A stretch of DNA of 32,394 nt. It comes from a virus. This document shows positions 3,848 to 32,394 of the stretch, one piece after another; the first letter of the stretch is position 1; every line of letters begins with the position of its first letter. The translations under genes were made by a program, and so were the position numbers. The stretch is taken from IMG/VR virus record IMGVR_UViG_3300030098_002502, positions 10,250-42,643 of that record; one strand, written 5' to 3'. The notes under the pieces were generated by a model, which was not told the DNA's origin, did not search any database, and saw only the letters and a program-made list of their open reading frames with translations.

Positions 3848-6800
3848 TGACAAGTGTTACACAGCAAATACCATCCTTTATTGGAGGTATATCTCAACAA
3901 CCAGATCAATTAAAAGTACCAGGACAATTAACTGAAGCAACTAATGTAATCCCTGATGTAACACATGGCTTATTAAAACGTCCTGGTGGTACATTAGTAG
4001 GTACTAATATGAGTTCCTATACTACTGATAGTAAATGGTTCCATTATTATAGGGATGAAAATGAACAGTACACTGGGCAGATAAACCTCTCTGATGGTGC
4101 CATAAAAATGTGGGCGTTGACAGAAGTTAAAAACGCTGCCGGGCAAACTGTTCATAATGCTGGTGCTGCAGTAACAGTATCCTTTGATCCAAACCCATGG
4201 GCAACAGCAACTGAATATAAAATTGGAGATATTGTTTCAGCAAATAGTAAGGTTTATAAAGCAACAACTGAAGCTACTTCTACAGGTAGTACAGCTCCAT
4301 CACATAGCTCAGGTTCTACAGCAGTAGGAGGAAACACTTGGGAATATGTAAGTACAACAGCAGCTAGAGAAACATTAATTAAAAATTATTTAAAAACAAC
4401 TCCTAGTGTAGGTAGTATTACTGATAGTGATTTACAAACATTAACACTAAATGATTTTACTTATATAGCTAATCGTAATTGTACTGTCGAATTGGATGCT
4501 ACTGTTGCAACTGCAAGACCGCCAGAAGCCTATATTGAATTGAAGAAAATAGCATATGCTAATCAGTATTCAGTTAACTTATTTGATAATACAAATTTAA
4601 CTACTATAAATACAGCTACTAGAGTTGAAGTCGAGAGAGTAATTGATAGTAGTAATAGTTGTAATGGTGATAATTTCCCTAGCTATGGTACAGCACCTGG
4701 GTCAGGTTCATATACAGGTGTATGTGATAATACTAATAACATACATGAAGATGGTTACTGTCCTAGTGTAGATACAAAAATCTTTTCAGTAACTCATGGT
4801 ACAGTTATAGCTGCTAATAAGGATAATCATGGTGTCTCATATACCCAGACAGTTACACCTGCTTCTGGAGCCGCTGCTGATCGTAAACATCTTTACTTCC
4901 GTATTGCTACAACTGGACAAGCTTTACCTGAAAGTGATGAGGAAACTCCTGTTTATAGATGTAGATATACAACGATTATAGATTTATTATATGGAGGAGA
5001 AGGTTGGATCACAGGTGATACTGTTGAAGTTTGGATGAATAAAGCTAAATATAAAATAACTGTTACCTCACATAGTACTTCTAAAGTACAAGCAAACTTA
5101 GGTTTGATTAGACCAGAGCCTACCTCATTTGATACTAAAACTACAGTGACAGCAGAAACTGTTGTAGGTTCAATCAGAACTGCAATTGTTGCTACAGGTA
5201 ATTTTGCTGATGCTGATGTACAAGTAATTGGTAATGGTATTTATATAACTCGAGCATCAGGTACCTTCAATATAACTGCACCGTCTGGAGAATTGATGAA
5301 TGTCGTATCAGATTCTATAAAAGATATAGCTGAATTACCTAGACAATGTAAGCATGGTTATGTGATTAGAGTTGAGAATTCTAATGCAGATGAAGATGAT
5401 TATTATGTAAAATTCTTTGGTTCTAATGATAGAGACGGTGATGGTGTATGGGAAGAGTGTCCTAAACCTGGTATCAAAACTACATTAGATGCATCTAAGA
5501 TGCCTGTCCAAGTTGTTAGACAAGCTGATGGTACATTTAGAGTATTACAAGTAGCATGGGATCCTAGACAAGTTGGTGATGATGTAACAGTACCAGAACC
5601 ATCCTTTGTTGGTAAGACAATTAACAAGCTAATCTTCTTTAGAAATAGACTTGTTATATTAAGTGACGAGAATGTAAACTTATCACGTCCTGGAGATTTC
5701 TTTAATTTCTGGCCTAAATCTGCTATTACTTATACAGCTACAGATAATATAGATTTGTCTTGTAGTTCAGAATACCCAGCTATTGTTTACGATGCTATCC
5801 AAGTTAATAGTGGTCTTGTGTTATTCACTAAGAATCAACAGTTTATGTTGACTACAGATAGTGATGTATTAAGCCCGTTAACTGCTAAAATAAATTCTTT
5901 AGCATCCTATAATTTTAACTTTAATTCTAATCCAATATCTTTAGGTACTACTATTTCCTGGCTAGATAATGCTGGTAAATATACACGGTTATTTGAGATG
6001 GCTGCTGTACTTAGAGAAGGTGAACCGGATATATTTGAACAGAGCAAAATAATTTCAAAAAAATTTCCGAAGGGAATTACAATTGTAGCTAATTCCAGGG
6101 AGAACTCTGTAATCTTTTTTGCTGAAAAAGGTCAGTCAACTATATATGGATTTAGGTACCATACTCAAGGTGAAAAGCGTGTACAACAAGCATGGTTCAC
6201 ATGGACCTTAGGTGGTGCTATTCAGTATTTATGTATGTTTGATGATTCCTTATATGCTGTTATACGTAATGGATCTAATGATGTTATACATAGATTTTCA
6301 ATTAAATTAGCAGATGATACTCCTAGTGTAATAGACGATCTGGGTACTGCATCTACGGGTGATGATATTACATATAGAATACATTTAGATAATGCTAAAG
6401 AGTTTGATTATACAGCATTAACCTATGATGCTAGTAACAACTGGACTAAATTCACATTAGGTGATGGCTTTAATCAGACTGGTCAACTAGCTATTTTCGC
6501 TAGATCTACTAGTACTGATAAAGAATTTAATGGACAGTATAAAACTGTTACAACTTTCAATGATAGTGGTACTATTAAAGTAAAAATACCTGGTGATTTT
6601 ACAACTAGTACTAGTGCTAAAGCATTTAAAATAGTATTAGGCTACCTATATGATATGGAACTTGTCTTCCCTACTATATATGTGAAGCAACAAACTGGTG
6701 AAAACTTTAGAGCTGACACTCAATCTACCTTAATTTTACATAGATTTAAGTTAAATTTAGGTGCATCAGGTGTGTATGAAGCTACTTTAAAACGTGTTGG

Positions 6801-28075: not shown

Positions 28076-28158
28076 GGTCCCTGCCCTATACAGGGGAAGG
28101 GAAGGGTGGACCCGACCCCTATGAGGGATCTTATCTACTTCGTAGACATCGATCCCTC
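28076..28158 (+). other. Two strong stem-loops after the terminase gene
   Basis: First structure: GGTCC (28076-28080) with GGACC (28108-28112), enclosing CCCTG/CAGGG. Second: GAGGGATC (28123-28130) with GATCCCTC (28151-28158), enclosing TCTAC/GTAGA around a TTC loop. Neither is followed by a clear T-run, so they are more likely mRNA-processing or stability elements, or weak terminators, than classic intrinsic terminators. They fill most of the gap between terL and the next gene. Confidence 0.6.
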
Positions 28159-29186: not shown

Positions 29187-29268
29187 GGTTAACGATTGTG
29201 TATGTTTGTTAACATTAATGTGTGCACATCTGTAAGCTTCCGATGTTAACGAAGGGACACACGGTTAC

Positions 29269-29325
29269 TATCATTATTACAGTATGTAACGAACCCTTGC
29301 GTTCTGCGCAGTTCTATGTTATTAT
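29269..29325 (+). promoter_or_regulatory. Early promoter P1 with upstream element
   Basis: The -35-like hexamer TTGCGT (29297-29302) is 17 bases from TATTAT (29320-29325), within TTATTATAAT. The 14-mer TATCATTATTACAG (29269-29282) begins 28 bases before the -35, exactly as at P2. Transcription would start near 29333, just before the first early gene. Host sigma70 RNA polymerase is expected to use it, like T7 A1-A3. Confidence 0.65.
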
Positions 29326-29519: not shown

Positions 29520-29525
29520 GGTTTG

Positions 29526-29582
29526 TATCATTATTACAGAGTATGAACTGCACTTGCATTATTATGCTAACTCTGTTATAAT
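29526..29582 (+). promoter_or_regulatory. Early promoter P2 with upstream element
   Basis: TTGCAT (29554-29559) is 17 bases from a perfect TATAAT (29577-29582). The same 14-mer as at P1, TATCATTATTACAG (29526-29539), again begins 28 bases before the -35. The start point would be near 29590. This is the best sigma70-type promoter seen in the window. Confidence 0.8.
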
Positions 29583-29675: not shown

Positions 29676-29701
29676 TCTTCAATCAATTCACTTCACAAAC
29701 T

Positions 29702-29821
29702 ATGAACTATTACGAATCATTAGTTAAAGAAATTGACCAGTTAAAGAGTCAAGGTAAGTTAGTTAAATTTACTATACTTCCTTCACAAATTAACAACAAG
29801 AGAAAATCAATTAAGTTCTAA
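29702..29821 (+). CDS. 39-aa early protein of unknown function
   Basis: A short ORF downstream of P2. The peptide starts MNYYESLVKEIDQLKSQGKL and ends in a basic tail (NNKRKSIKF). There is no Shine-Dalgarno sequence. Instead TTCACTTCAC (29687-29696) lies 6-15 bases before the ATG, the first case of the TTCAC leader pattern seen across the early genes. It ends three bases before the next ORF. Confidence 0.5.
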   Translation: MNYYESLVKEIDQLKSQGKLVKFTILPSQINNKRKSIKF

Positions 29822-29824
29822 ATT

Positions 29825-29983
29825 ATGTCTGAATTAAAATCAATGTTCAATGGTTGTGTGTTAATGAATGATAGTGCGATTAACAATCAAGCTATTATGA
29901 ATGTACTACAATCTGAATATGAAAATAACTTTGAGTTTAAATCAATTAACTCATCAAGTTATAACATCTCTGATAGAGATTGA
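29825..29983 (+). CDS. 52-aa early protein of unknown function
   Basis: It starts three bases after the 39-aa gene, so translation is probably coupled. It is Asn/Ser-rich and polar (MSELKSMFNGCVLMNDSAIN, then EYENNFEFKSINSSS). No motif is recognised. The two preceding promoters and the short spacing place it in the early operon. Confidence 0.5.
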   Translation: MSELKSMFNGCVLMNDSAINNQAIMNVLQSEYENNFEFKSINSSSYNISDRD

Positions 29984-30022
29984 TTCAACTAACTAACACT
30001 TACTGTTCACTCATTATTTAAC

Positions 30023-30235
30023 ATGACTAAAATTCTAATTCATCTTAAACCTGAATATTTACCAGATGTACAACGTTTGGGTTTAAGTTACACTCATTCT
30101 GAGAATGATGAAATTGATGTAGTAGTTAACGATCTAGATTATGATCCTAATCATTACTTAGTTGATCCAGATGAGCAACTATGTGAACTCTACGGGATCA
30201 ACTATAATTACGTTAACTGCATGGAAAAAGCATAG
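30023..30235 (+). CDS. 70-aa acidic early protein
   Basis: A small, strongly acidic protein with alternating strands: KILIHLKPEYLPDVQRLGLS, then NDEIDVVVNDLDYDPNHYLV, ending in YNYVNCMEKA. The composition resembles DNA-mimic or host-polymerase inhibitors of phages, but nothing specific is recognised. There is no Shine-Dalgarno sequence. The leader is TTCACTCATT, two bases, TTAAC, ATG, nearly identical to the leader of the gene at 31959. Confidence 0.6.
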   Translation: MTKILIHLKPEYLPDVQRLGLSYTHSENDEIDVVVNDLDYDPNHYLVDPDEQLCELYGINYNYVNCMEKA

Positions 30236-30272
30236 TTAAATATTACTAACTATGTGATCCTTTCTTGTTAAC

Positions 30273-30287
30273 ATTCACAGTCAAATC
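30273..30287 (+). repeat. ATTCACAGTCAAATC element, copy 1
   Basis: The first full copy of an interspersed element found at 30273, 30796, 31528, 31859 and, cut off, 32386. This copy continues GCTGCTCG and lies 63 bases before the KTSC-like gene. A TTG at 30297 follows it but would add an unlikely N-terminus. Confidence 0.7.
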
Positions 30288-30350
30288 GCTGCTCGATTGT
30301 TAACACGAAGGGTTCATAAATTGTTCACCTTCACTATTAAATTATCCACT

Positions 30351-30587
30351 ATGTTTAAAATGTTTCTAACAGTTTCCGATCGTACAAGTACAGCTATCGA
30401 AGAGTTAAAAGTTGATGCTTTAAATAAGCAAGCAATTGTAACATTCAAGAATGGTAATGTGTACGCTTATGAGAATGTATCAACACGAGAGATTATCAAC
30501 GTATTGTTTAACGCTTCAGTAAGTCTTGGTTTCTGGGTTAATAAGAACTTGGTACAATCTGATCGTGCTACATTAGCATTAGCATAA
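30351..30587 (+). CDS. KTSC-domain-like early protein
   Basis: The ATG at 30351 gives a 78-aa protein. A TTG at 30297 would only add an unrelated basic stretch. Residues about 12-65 follow the KTSC domain pattern: SDRTSTAIEELKVDALNKQA, then VTFKNGNVYAYENVS and a helix ending in NASVSLGFWVNKNL. KTSC domains, about 60 aa, occur alone or at the ends of larger proteins in bacteria and phages. Function is not established. TTCACCTTCAC (30324-30334) precedes the start. Confidence 0.75.
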   Translation: MFKMFLTVSDRTSTAIEELKVDALNKQAIVTFKNGNVYAYENVSTREIINVLFNASVSLGFWVNKNLVQSDRATLALA

Positions 30588-30593
30588 CTAATT

Positions 30594-30687
30594 AATGTGG
30601 TATTGTTGTTACTTAGTTATGACACGGTTGCTATTAATTAGCGTAAAATAACACCGTTAGGATAGTAACAACATATAAATCCACATT
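30594..30687 (+). other. Long nested stem-loop upstream of tRNA-Asp
   Basis: Four stems nest about one centre: AATGTGG (30594-30600)/CCACATT (30681-30687), TGTTGTTACT (30604-30613)/AGTAACAACA (30664-30673), ACGGT (30624-30628)/ACCGT (30653-30657) and GCTA (30630-30633)/TAGC (30639-30642). It ends seven bases before the tRNA. No ORF uses it. It resembles the long bulged hairpins that RNase III cuts in T7 early mRNA, an analogy only. Confidence 0.7.
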
Positions 30688-30694
30688 ATTTCCT

Positions 30695-30766
30695 GATCCT
30701 ATAGATTAACGGTTAAATCATTACACTGTCACTGTAAAGATTCGAGTTCAATTCTCGATAGGATCG
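30695..30766 (+). tRNA. tRNA-Asp(GUC)
   Basis: A complete 72-nt cloverleaf. Acceptor GATCCTA pairs with TAGGATC, D stem GATT/AATC, and anticodon stem TTACA/TGTAA holds the loop CTGTCAC (anticodon GUC). T arm is TCGAG-TTCAATT-CTCGA. G73 and G1-C72 are Asp identity features. No CCA is encoded. It lies in the early gene cluster between the nested stem-loop and the 124-aa gene. A TGACAC/GTGTCA hairpin follows it. Confidence 0.93.
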
Positions 30767-30795
30767 TTGACACTTTATGTGTCATTTGTTAACTA

Positions 30796-30810
30796 TTTCA
30801 CAGTCAAATC
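30796..30810 (+). repeat. TTTCACAGTCAAATC element, copy 2, touching a start codon
   Basis: It shares 14 bases (TTCACAGTCAAATC) exactly with copy 1. The ATG of the 124-aa gene follows at once, so the element occupies the place of a ribosome-binding site. Confidence 0.75.
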
Positions 30811-31185
30811 ATGCTGAAAAGTGCATACGAAACAATCAAAGATTCTTATGATCTTGATACTCTTCGAGATATTGTAGAACATGGTTGTCAATCAGGTGCT
30901 GCTAATGAGCACATCTATTATTATGAAACTACTTCATTCTTCGATAACTACGAGGATGAAATAATTGAATACATCGCTGATACTTTAGGTGGTGAATCTA
31001 ACGAGCAAATATGGATAGATAATCCATGTAATATCGTTGGATATAAGAATGATACTGTATGGGTATATGTTGAACTTATTGCTCAACAATTAATTGAAGA
31101 GTATGAGTCAACAACATGTGAGGAATTATCCGATTTAGCTAACACTGAATGGGGTAAGAATCACTTGGAGATAGTAACAGGATGA
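30811..31185 (+). CDS. 124-aa acidic early protein
   Basis: A strongly acidic protein with the conserved-looking segment RDIVEHGCQSGAANEHIYYY, then a Tyr/Glu-rich region (DNYEDEIIEYIADTLG) and a C-terminal helical part (VELIAQQLIEEYESTTCEEL). I recall similar proteins with a HGC.SG motif in other cyanophages (possibly DUF7222) but cannot assign a function. The start is fixed by the adjacent repeat element. The stop overlaps the next small ORF as ATGA. Confidence 0.7.
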   Translation: MLKSAYETIKDSYDLDTLRDIVEHGCQSGAANEHIYYYETTSFFDNYEDEIIEYIADTLGGESNEQIWIDNPCNIVGYKNDTVWVYVELIAQQLIEEYESTTCEELSDLANTEWGKNHLEIVTG

Positions 31186-31259
31186 CAGGTATTATCGCTT
31201 GGATTTGTATTACTATCCTACTATACATCTTTCTTAAAAACGTTACCAACCACTCTTAA
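31182..31259 (+). CDS. 25-aa single-pass membrane peptide
   Basis: A tiny ORF coupled by ATGA to the gene before it. The peptide is MTGIIAWICITILLYIFLKN and a short polar end, that is, one transmembrane helix followed by a lysine. Coupling and hydrophobicity favour a real gene. Size alone would not. Similar tiny membrane peptides in phages disturb host membrane functions, but nothing specific can be said here. Confidence 0.5.
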   Translation: MTGIIAWICITILLYIFLKNVTNHS

Positions 31260-31262
31260 ATT

Positions 31263-31466
31263 ATGTTCTCAATGTCTAATACCAAAGCTGAGTTATTAGC
31301 GGAGGTACGAAGATTGCACAATCAAAGTGAGACTGAACTATCAGGATTACAAATGATTAGTGATGGATCAGTGAAAGTATTTAACACTGTTAAGTATGAA
31401 CTACCATTACTATTCAAAGATGTAAAGAATGCTGGTTCAAGTTTAAGGAAGTTATTAACTTTCTGA
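31263..31466 (+). CDS. 67-aa early protein of unknown function
   Basis: Two in-frame starts are possible: 31263 (MFSMSNTKAEL) or 31272 (MSNTKAEL). The second gives a more usual N-terminus. It is a helical, charged protein (KAELLAEVRRLHNQSETELS) with a C-terminal basic segment (AGSSLRKLLTF). No motif is recognised. Its upstream sequence ACCACTCTTAAATT is only loosely like the TTCAC leaders. A hairpin terminator follows after 36 bases. Confidence 0.55.
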   Translation: MFSMSNTKAELLAEVRRLHNQSETELSGLQMISDGSVKVFNTVKYELPLLFKDVKNAGSSLRKLLTF

Positions 31467-31502
31467 TTCTCTCAATTAATCATCGTAACTGATGATTTCC
31501 TG

Positions 31503-31522
31503 AGGGATTCTTCCCTTTATTT
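31503..31522 (+). terminator. Weak intrinsic terminator
   Basis: AGGGA (31503-31507) pairs with TCCCT (31512-31516) around TTCT, followed by TTATTT. Just before it ATCATC and GATGAT form a second 6-bp stem. The short stem makes partial termination more likely. Confidence 0.5.
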
Positions 31523-31527
31523 ACTTT

Positions 31528-31541
31528 ATTCACAGTCAATT
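31528..31541 (+). repeat. ATTCACAGTCAATT element, copy 3
   Basis: It follows the weak terminator and precedes the ATG of the 87-aa gene by five bases. The TTCACAGTCAA core is identical to the other copies. The 3' part differs (TTCCCCA). Confidence 0.7.
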
Positions 31542-31546
31542 CCCCA

Positions 31547-31810
31547 ATGAAACTAAAACGAACTGGTTACAATCAAACCGTAGTTAGTCACAACAACGGT
31601 GTTGAAGTATTCTTTAGTTATGATACTCCAGTTGCTGGAAGATCAGCTGATTATGAATACTTTAGAACTGAAGATTATTATAGTAAAACAACATCAAGAC
31701 ATATAAATAATTATCTTGGTGGTGTTAAATCTACTACAGTTTCTCAGGAAATTATTGATACTTTAGCGGATGAATGTCCTGCTGTTGTATCATTAGCGGA
31801 GGTTAATTAA
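31547..31810 (+). CDS. 87-aa conserved-type phage protein (possibly DUF8033)
   Basis: The pattern KLKRTGYNQTVVSHNNGVEV, FFSYDTPVAGR, then YYSKTTSRHINNYLGG is one I associate with small proteins in many phages, annotated as DUF8033 or hypothetical. The call is from memory. It is a small beta-rich protein with a helical end (SQEIIDTLADECP). Function is unknown. It is preceded by copy 3 of the TTCACAGTCAA element and overlaps the next ORF by one base (TAATG). Confidence 0.7.
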   Translation: MKLKRTGYNQTVVSHNNGVEVFFSYDTPVAGRSADYEYFRTEDYYSKTTSRHINNYLGGVKSTTVSQEIIDTLADECPAVVSLAEVN

Positions 31811-31956
31811 TGAATAGTGATTTATTATTTAAAATCTATTATAATGCTAGGAAGATTAATCACAGTCAAGTCGTGCTTCCTAATATTAAACCAGAATATA
31901 AGATTGTAGATATACAACCTATTCGTAAACACTCTAATTTTCACTCATTTGGTTAA
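31810..31956 (+). CDS. 48-aa early protein containing copy 4 of the repeat
   Basis: The ATG overlaps the preceding stop (TAATG). The peptide is MNSDLLFKIYYNARKINHSQ followed by VVLPNIKPEYKIVD. The TCACAGTCAA element lies in frame at 31859-31869 and is followed by GTG at 31873, so a shorter protein from that GTG (27 aa) is an alternative. No motif is recognised. Confidence 0.5.
   Translation: MNSDLLFKIYYNARKINHSQVVLPNIKPEYKIVDIQPIRKHSNFHSFG
31859..31873 (+). repeat. ATCACAGTCAAGTCG element, copy 4
   Basis: It matches copies 1 and 2 at 12 of 14 positions from TCACAGTCAA onward and is followed by TGCTT, like the TGCT after copy 1. It is the only copy inside an ORF, which casts doubt on that ORF's upstream start. 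Confidence 0.55.
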
Positions 31957-31958
31957 CT

Positions 31959-32300
31959 ATGTCACACACTAATTCACCCGAATACTTTACTATTACTACT
32001 GTATGTCAGTATGATGGAAGTACAAATGTCCTTGCAATTTGTGAGGATATGGATGCTGTAATGTACAGATTAAAGAGATGTTATACAACTTGTGGTGATG
32101 AATACCGTATCAATTGTTATCACTTATCAACTGCAATTGATGAAGCAAAAGAATACAATGAACAGCAAGTTAGTAGAGTAAAGTATAAGAAAGAGAGTGA
32201 AGTTAAAGATAGATTGTATGAAGCATTCAAGAAAAAGGACAATGAAAGTAACACCGAATTGGCAACATCACAGCAAAAAGCAACAGAAACGAACTCTTAA
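31959..32300 (+). CDS. 113-aa early protein of unknown function
   Basis: A protein with an N-terminal beta-rich part (EYFTITTVCQYDGSTNVLAI), a Cys-containing middle (LKRCYTTCGDEYRINCYHLS) and a charged helical C-terminus (VKYKKESEVKDRLYEAFKKK). Four Cys in residues 15-55 might bind a metal, but spacing fits no named motif. The leader is TTCACTCATT, three bases, TTAAC, T, ATG, close to that of the gene at 30023. A small basic ORF overlaps its end. Confidence 0.65.
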   Translation: MSHTNSPEYFTITTVCQYDGSTNVLAICEDMDAVMYRLKRCYTTCGDEYRINCYHLSTAIDEAKEYNEQQVSRVKYKKESEVKDRLYEAFKKKDNESNTELATSQQKATETNS

Positions 32301-32367
32301 ACCTCAAGCTATTAGACAATCTAAAGCTAAACTTAAGGCACTAATTGTTAAATTATATAGCAATTAG
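32242..32367 (+). CDS. Possible 41-aa basic protein
   Basis: An ORF overlapping the last 59 bases of the 113-aa gene and running into the terminator stem. The peptide is very basic: MKVTPNWQHHSKKQQKRTLK, then IRQSKAKLKALIVKLYSN. AAAAAGGAC before the ATG is a passable ribosome-binding site. It fills an otherwise empty stretch. It could also be chance, as its 5' half is constrained by the overlapping gene. Confidence 0.4.
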   Translation: MKVTPNWQHHSKKQQKRTLKPQAIRQSKAKLKALIVKLYSN

Positions 32368-32385
32368 TGTTTATTTTTTATTTTA
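32339..32385 (+). terminator. AT-rich terminator near the window end
   Basis: CACTAATTG (32339-32347) and CAATTAGTG (32361-32369) form a perfect 9-bp stem with a 13-nt loop, followed by TTTATTTTTTATTTT. The strong U-tract supports termination even though the stem has few G-C pairs. Confidence 0.7.
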
Positions 32386-32394
32386 ATTCACAGT
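32386..32394 (+). repeat. ATTCACAGT element, copy 5, cut by the window end
   Basis: The last nine bases match the beginning of copies 1 and 3 exactly. It lies right after a terminator, as copy 3 does, which suggests another small gene starts just beyond the window. Confidence 0.6.

Follow-up and report, generated by a model that had tools for sequence, protein, structure and literature searches.

Among the signals described in phages, the stoperators of Cluster A mycobacteriophages (L5, Bxb1 and TipsytheTRex) come closest to the element discussed here: they are asymmetric sites of similar length, numerous in each genome, that lie in a single orientation, often near the starts of genes, and that differ from lineage to lineage (PMC9283540, PMC6550527). 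At these 13-bp sites, transcription is stopped by a monomeric repressor with two DNA-binding domains (PMC9283540, PMC6550527). Our element is an 11-nucleotide (nt) word, TTCACAGTCAA, found on one strand of the virus record IMGVR_UViG_3300030098_002502. We analyzed bases 10250–42643 of this 42,643-base IMG/VR contig, a stretch of 32,394 nt referred to as ‘the window’. In the sequence features tested—asymmetry of the ∼13-bp type, many copies in one orientation, and a variant for each lineage—the words appear to work like stoperators. They differ in number (5–13 copies), in their confinement to the early and replication region, and in occurring in T7-like lytic phages in which no repressor gene is recognized.

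Other systems also bear comparison. The promoters of single-subunit phage RNA polymerases (T7, Syn5) are likewise dispersed and strand-specific, and lie between and inside early and middle genes. T7 RNase III separates mRNAs at unit boundaries and T4 RegB inactivates mRNAs; the sites of both are, like the words, strand-specific and largely confined to early and middle messages. RegB reads GGAG, however, and RNase III reads hairpins, whereas our words are unpaired, 11 nt long, and vary by lineage.

The window belongs to a T7-like cyanopodovirus, here G000, encoding capsid, tail and internal virion proteins, terminase and transaldolase, with its early gene cluster at the right end of the contig. 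Among named phages, its early region is closest to that of Prochlorococcus phage NATL1A-7 (genus Cheungvirus). The G000 contig lacks the phage RNA polymerase gene, which is present in L100, a near-identical contig that extends beyond that end and whose exonuclease is 100% identical to that of G000. For comparison, we used 26 cyanopodovirus genomes, oriented and aligned by gene order, and 80 IMG/VR loci from relatives, each centered on the region of the exonuclease gene. Word classes were counted in 39 loci (506 kb) of metagenomic and named relatives, and 20 contigs were additionally searched over their whole extent.

Words of one strand and their classes

Overrepresented words were sought by unsupervised counts of k-mers on the coding strand, set against Markov expectation. 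Applied to phage T7, this method recovers the T7 promoter and, after masking, no comparable second word. In the early and middle region of G000, the top-ranked k-mer is TTCACAGTCA (5 forward, 0 reverse, 0.02 expected). The window contains four copies of the word and a fifth that is cut, all on the + strand. TTCACAGTCAA itself occurs at 30274..30284, in intergenic DNA downstream of a hairpin and 66 nt upstream of gene 30351; at 30797..30807, 3 nt before the ATG of gene 30811; and at 31529..31539, 7 nt before the ATG of gene 31547. The form ATCACAGTCAA lies at 31859..31869 within a small open reading frame (ORF), 31811–31957, and TTCACAGT, at 32387..32394, is truncated where the contig stops; in L100 this copy runs on as TTCACAGTCAG. 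Two or three further copies, also + strand, occur elsewhere in the contig.

An analogous, forward-only word is present in most of the 26 cyanopodoviruses, and is usually CACnnTCA-like. In NATL1A-7, TTCACAATCGA ranks first (5 forward, 0 reverse, 0.005 expected). The word is ACACACTCATCA in P-SSP7; CCACCATCATC in NATL2A-133, 9515-10a and P-SSP10; TCACAATCATCA in S-RIP2; TTCACACTCATA in S-CBP4; and TCACCATCAC in Syn5. Divergent words occur in S-TIP28 (ATCTCTCATC), SS120-1 and S-CBP42. The k-mer counts found no strong dispersed word in S-TIP37, S28-C3, S-CBP3 or S-SRP01; the first three nonetheless have CACACTCA in the linker of the primase gene.

Each locus of adequate length has one dominant word—TTCACAGTCA, TTCACAATAAC, TTCACAGTGAAC, TTCACAATCGA, TTCACAATCAC or CACACTCATCA—and these six classes are mutually exclusive among the 39 loci. 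The words are asymmetric, non-palindromic, and conserved at 10–12 positions, with 5–13 copies in each long locus. For the locus's own word the count is 213 forward and 0 in reverse, against 7 and 7 for the five foreign words combined; since each locus was classed by its own commonest word, the excess of own over foreign words arises partly by construction, which the strand counts and positions do not. Copies of mixed strand were found in none of the 20 contigs searched whole, and words of the TTCAC type were absent from the late part of the near-complete contigs. In some loci (L175 and L164) copies stand in tandem, 11–14 nt apart, a spacing typical of protein-binding sites. L175 has four near-tandem copies of TCACAATAA within ∼50 nt at 635–680, 11–14 nt apart, where there is no open frame.

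The words occupy conserved places in early and replication genes, and at these places each phage has its own version. The linker of the primase gene contains the locus's own word in 37 of 37 loci (0.5 expected), the exonuclease gene in 34 of 39 (0.4 expected), and the RNA polymerase gene, around codon 450, in 14 of 32 (1.2 expected). Within genes lie all but 56 of 189 sites, the 56 being outside open frames. The residues of primase and exonuclease that best track word class are those encoded by the word. Conservation of protein sequence fails to explain the polymerase sites, because the RNA polymerase site is displaced by 9 nt in P60 and S-CBP4, and because in P-SSP7-like phages the DNA polymerase site is in a different reading frame from the RNA polymerase site.

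Could such words be accidental, or a by-product of codon usage or of common ancestry of the coding sequence? In favor of this, the pentamer TTCAC that is part of the story below is not enriched, and in the GC-rich phages Syn5, S-CBP2 and P60 some of the CACCATCA count may represent Thr-Ile-Thr codons. The strand counts (213 to 0, against 7 and 7 for foreign words) contradict it, as do the sites between genes, the use of two reading frames, and the shifted positions. Word classes, furthermore, switch together at all sites, and the core tree of 31 phages requires about 11 such changes (18 for shuffled labels; minimum, 5). We consider an origin of this kind very improbable.

Early leaders, start codons and hairpins

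The words came to attention through an earlier note on this stretch, according to which TTCAC, 10–21 nt before the ATG, takes the place of a Shine–Dalgarno (SD) sequence in six early genes. The pentamer is where it was said to be: at 29687 and 29692 (gene 29702), 30006 (gene 30023), 30330, with another at 30324 (gene 30351), 30797 (gene 30811), 31529 (gene 31547) and 31940 (gene 31959). It is the commonest pentamer of the early leaders (6 of 10; the next is in 4). We reject it as a motif in its own right, as the window holds no excess of it (57 occurrences against an expectation of 68 ± 9). Nor did the chance rate of ∼2% given for it hold up: TTCAC is present in 5.8% of 21-nt windows in the region, and in 13% of those that end between genes. 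Because the pentamer is not overrepresented and is dense in intergenic DNA, its presence in six of eight leaders is much less striking than 2% implied. What survives is a non-random signal in the leaders, carried by the 11-nt word rather than by TTCAC. Relatives carry this signal too, so the refuting condition that the note had set, absence from relatives, does not hold. Only two of the six leaders, those with TTCAC at 30797 and 31529, contain the word; the copies at 30274, 31859 and 32387 are outside them.

In the other four leaders TTCAC occurs without the word, on the + strand in each case: as TTCACTTCAC at 29687..29696 before gene 29702, where it is unsupported as a signal; as TTCACCTTCAC at 30324..30334 before gene 30351; and as TTCACTCATT both at 30006..30015 before gene 30023 and at 31940..31949 before gene 31959. 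The TTCACTCATT pair had been noted as shared by two leaders. As a signal it finds no support; the pair is a two-copy 15-nt repeat, one copy of which is inside the end of ORF 31811–31957. In L170, the leader of the 31959 orthologue has the full word, TTCACAGTCAG, in place of TTCACTCATT.

The uncoupled early genes had been described as lacking clear SD sequences. Most of their leaders indeed show no appreciable pairing with the anti-SD; those of 29355 (−4.0 kcal/mol) and 31959 (−2.7 kcal/mol) pair weakly, and the coupled gene 31811 has a clear SD (−10.7 kcal/mol). The lack of SDs is not specific to early genes, as many late genes are also without one (Mann–Whitney p = 0.28).

With respect to start codons, the sites fall into two groups. 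In the early region 40% are within 12 nt of a start, compared with 15% at random, and the primase-linker word has an in-frame ATG (30 loci) or GTG (7) after it in all 37 loci, the equivalent of the internal start of T7 gp4B as placed by the T7 annotation. This arrangement, which in L100 lies in the primase gene at 4163–5752, suggests that a helicase-only form is made. Linkage to starts is limited to the early-region and primase-linker sites: a start codon is near 18% of exonuclease sites, 14% of those internal to the RNA polymerase gene, and 12% of those in other core genes, against 15% at random.

The words might thus be signals for initiation of translation that replace SD sequences, as the earlier note held. 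Like SDs, they stand 0–12 nt before some starts, including the gp4B-like one; the primase-linker copy and those of many early leaders stand exactly where an SD would be, 0–8 nt before the start, and early leaders of G000 mostly have no SD. They are not complementary to the CCUCC anti-SD, however; they are phage-specific, varying among phages of one host when host ribosomes do not; and many copies, such as those in the exonuclease and RNA polymerase genes, have no start codon nearby. Some leaders contain both the word and an SD-like AAGGA. Simple replacement of the SD is contradicted by these observations, and we regard a translational signal in any form as a distinctly improbable account. Internal initiation as the sole role fits the primase-linker copies, and not those in the exonuclease and polymerase genes. 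The description of the signal as one of early genes stands in part: early genes are involved, and so are replication genes.

Copies between genes tend to follow hairpins: a strong hairpin is upstream of 17 of 51 such copies and downstream of 6. Three of the copies in the window come 11–14 nt after terminator-like hairpins, also on the + strand, at 30768..30784 (12 nt before the copy at 30797), 31502..31517 (11 nt before that at 31529) and 32336..32372 (14 nt before that at 32387). The genes that follow two of these words, both + strand, are 30811..31185, which encodes a DUF7222 domain, and 31547..31810, a member of phrog_5643 with no function assigned. The word is not itself within a hairpin; its mean unpaired value is 0.62, compared with 0.45 at random, so a role as hairpin loop or RNA structure is unsupported. 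No second box is conserved around the words, and the idea of a sigma-type second box accompanying them was accordingly rejected.

Additional elements were noticed in the window. A tRNA-Asp (GTC) is within the early gene cluster at 30694–30767, and a tRNA-Gly is at 1678–1750. A glutamine-II riboswitch aptamer (Rfam RF01704, 59 bits) occupies 901–957 on the + strand, upstream of a small gene. Two more k-mers are forward-only in the window and the whole L001 contig, GGAGGAGG (8 forward, 0 reverse) and CTCAAGGTGC (6 and 0); these are probably coding repeats in structural genes.

A separate promoter for the phage RNA polymerase

Nearly all of the named phages have a direct repeat of 13–26 bp, one copy of which is just after the terminase gene and the other inside the RNA polymerase gene. 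In Syn5, both members of the pair are copies of ATTGGGCACCCGTAA, a promoter established by experiment (PMC3950665, PMC6395800). As a general element, the Syn5-type promoter was rejected, since it occurs in Syn5 only. In relatives of G000, the element has a constant core, TATACAGGGAGA, at its end, and a variable upstream part. G000 has CCCTGCCCTATACAGGGG just after terminase, at 28079–28096 on the + strand; this is probably a phage RNA polymerase promoter, and is distinct from the word.

We initially favored the words themselves as phage RNA polymerase promoters, on account of their CAC core and T7-like dispersal. On this account, early and middle transcription would start directly after each word and yield messages with a short leader or none. 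In dispersal and strand bias the words match T7 promoters, and they often come after terminator-like hairpins and 0–12 nt before start codons of the early region. We abandoned the idea once the paired element had turned up in almost every one of the 26 phages, where the known Syn5 promoter also lies (PMC3950665, PMC6395800), for this element, with its TATACAGGGAGA-type core, varies independently of the words. The promoter CGCCACCGTATACAGGGAGA occurs with two word classes, and word class TTCACAGTCA with at least seven promoter recognition sequences; CCCTGCCCTATACAGGGG of G000 is close to the promoter element of S-RIP2, yet the word of S-RIP2 differs. The words are separate from the phage RNA polymerase promoter, and the earlier note's suggestion of a promoter signal is, in its simplest form, contradicted. 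A host sigma promoter is unlikely because no second box is conserved around the words. That the words are promoters of any kind is, in our estimation, improbable.

Two regions of the window, 29263–29303 and 29520–29560, form a 71% identical repeat that resembles a pair of early host-type promoters (ATCATTATTACAG ... TATAAT); NATL1A-7 has similar pairs. As a by-product, the analysis predicts where the phage RNA polymerase promoters lie in most of the named cyanopodoviruses studied, and in more than 20 metagenomic relatives.

What might read the words

The reading that we tentatively prefer, at somewhat less than even confidence, is that the words are recognized, in an orientation-dependent way, by a phage-encoded factor that regulates early and middle genes—a stoperator-like brake on transcription. 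The existence of the word family, its strand specificity, the mutual exclusivity of its classes, its conserved positions, and its independence from the phage RNA polymerase promoter are matters of observation. That a protein reads the word, that the phage encodes this protein, and that its effect is negative and transcriptional, we infer. A small DNA-binding protein of the phage would attach to double-stranded DNA at the asymmetric 10–12-bp word, both where units meet and within early and middle genes. Bound there, it would block or stop RNA polymerase arriving from early promoters, in one orientation only. Early and middle expression would be capped or shut off as a result, and late genes, which are without sites, would continue to be expressed. 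In different lineages, the protein and the specificity of its sites would have shifted together.

Host identity alone probably does not fix the code, because phages of one host can differ in word: S-RIP2 and S-CBP42, both phages of WH7803, carry different ones. A host-determined code is unlikely for the same reason.

Several considerations weigh against a brake of this kind. No repressor-like protein was recognized: a Pfam scan of early proteins, 20 from G000/L100 and NATL1A-7 and 10 from P-SSP7, yielded no confident DNA-binding domain; these are a subset of the early proteins, most of them without a known family. The sole protein among them that acts on DNA is a tyrosine integrase. Nor does the tree of any core or widespread early gene bring word-class changes near the minimum; RNA polymerase, SSB, endonuclease, primase, DNA polymerase, exonuclease and gene 258, each considered as a covarying candidate, require 10–14 changes against a minimum of 5. 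Many words lie within genes, which sets them apart from classic stoperators. No stable lysogeny is observed among these phages (PMC8776855). And a reader that acts on RNA would leave the same patterns.

One candidate reader was a small, very basic early protein (PNWQHHSKK..RQSKAxL), MKVTPNWQHHSKKQQKRTLKPQAIRQSKAKLKALIVKLYSN, encoded at 32245–32367 and present in 17 relatives. Its RQSKAxL segment is mostly confined to phages with the TTCACAGTCA word. It was dropped because it is missing from NATL1A-7, P-SSP7 and Syn5.

RNA processing is the main rival to the brake. Here the word would act in the transcript, as the target of a phage-directed factor, either an RNA-binding protein that binds it or an endoribonuclease that cuts it, and so would separate or inactivate early and middle mRNAs in the manner of T7 RNase III or T4 RegB. 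Strand specificity suits RNA as well as it does DNA, and the usual intergenic order of hairpin, word and start codon fits this reading; in 37 of 37 loci the primase-linker word stands just ahead of the gp4B-like start, so that a cut there would yield a message for the helicase only. The polymerase and exonuclease messages, however, would be lost to cuts at the words inside their genes, and the word is not itself in a hairpin. A specificity of 11 nt for single-stranded RNA would also be unusually long for a phage nuclease. On balance, we think RNA processing rather unlikely.

In the open-access literature searched, we found no description of these words. They may, we propose with some reserve, constitute a previously undescribed and rapidly switching code in T7-like cyanophages: a lineage-specific 11-nt word, on one strand, through which a phage factor punctuates early and replication genes by a DNA- or RNA-level mechanism not known from T7. 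The words provide sites that are directly testable, can aid in typing cyanophage lineages, and offer a route to the factor that reads them. T7-like cyanophages infect the sea's most abundant photosynthetic cells, and gene control in them beyond the switch between host and phage polymerases is hardly known. Lineage- and strand-specific words at fixed places in the polymerase, primase and exonuclease genes imply an extra layer of regulation, one whose specificity is diversifying.

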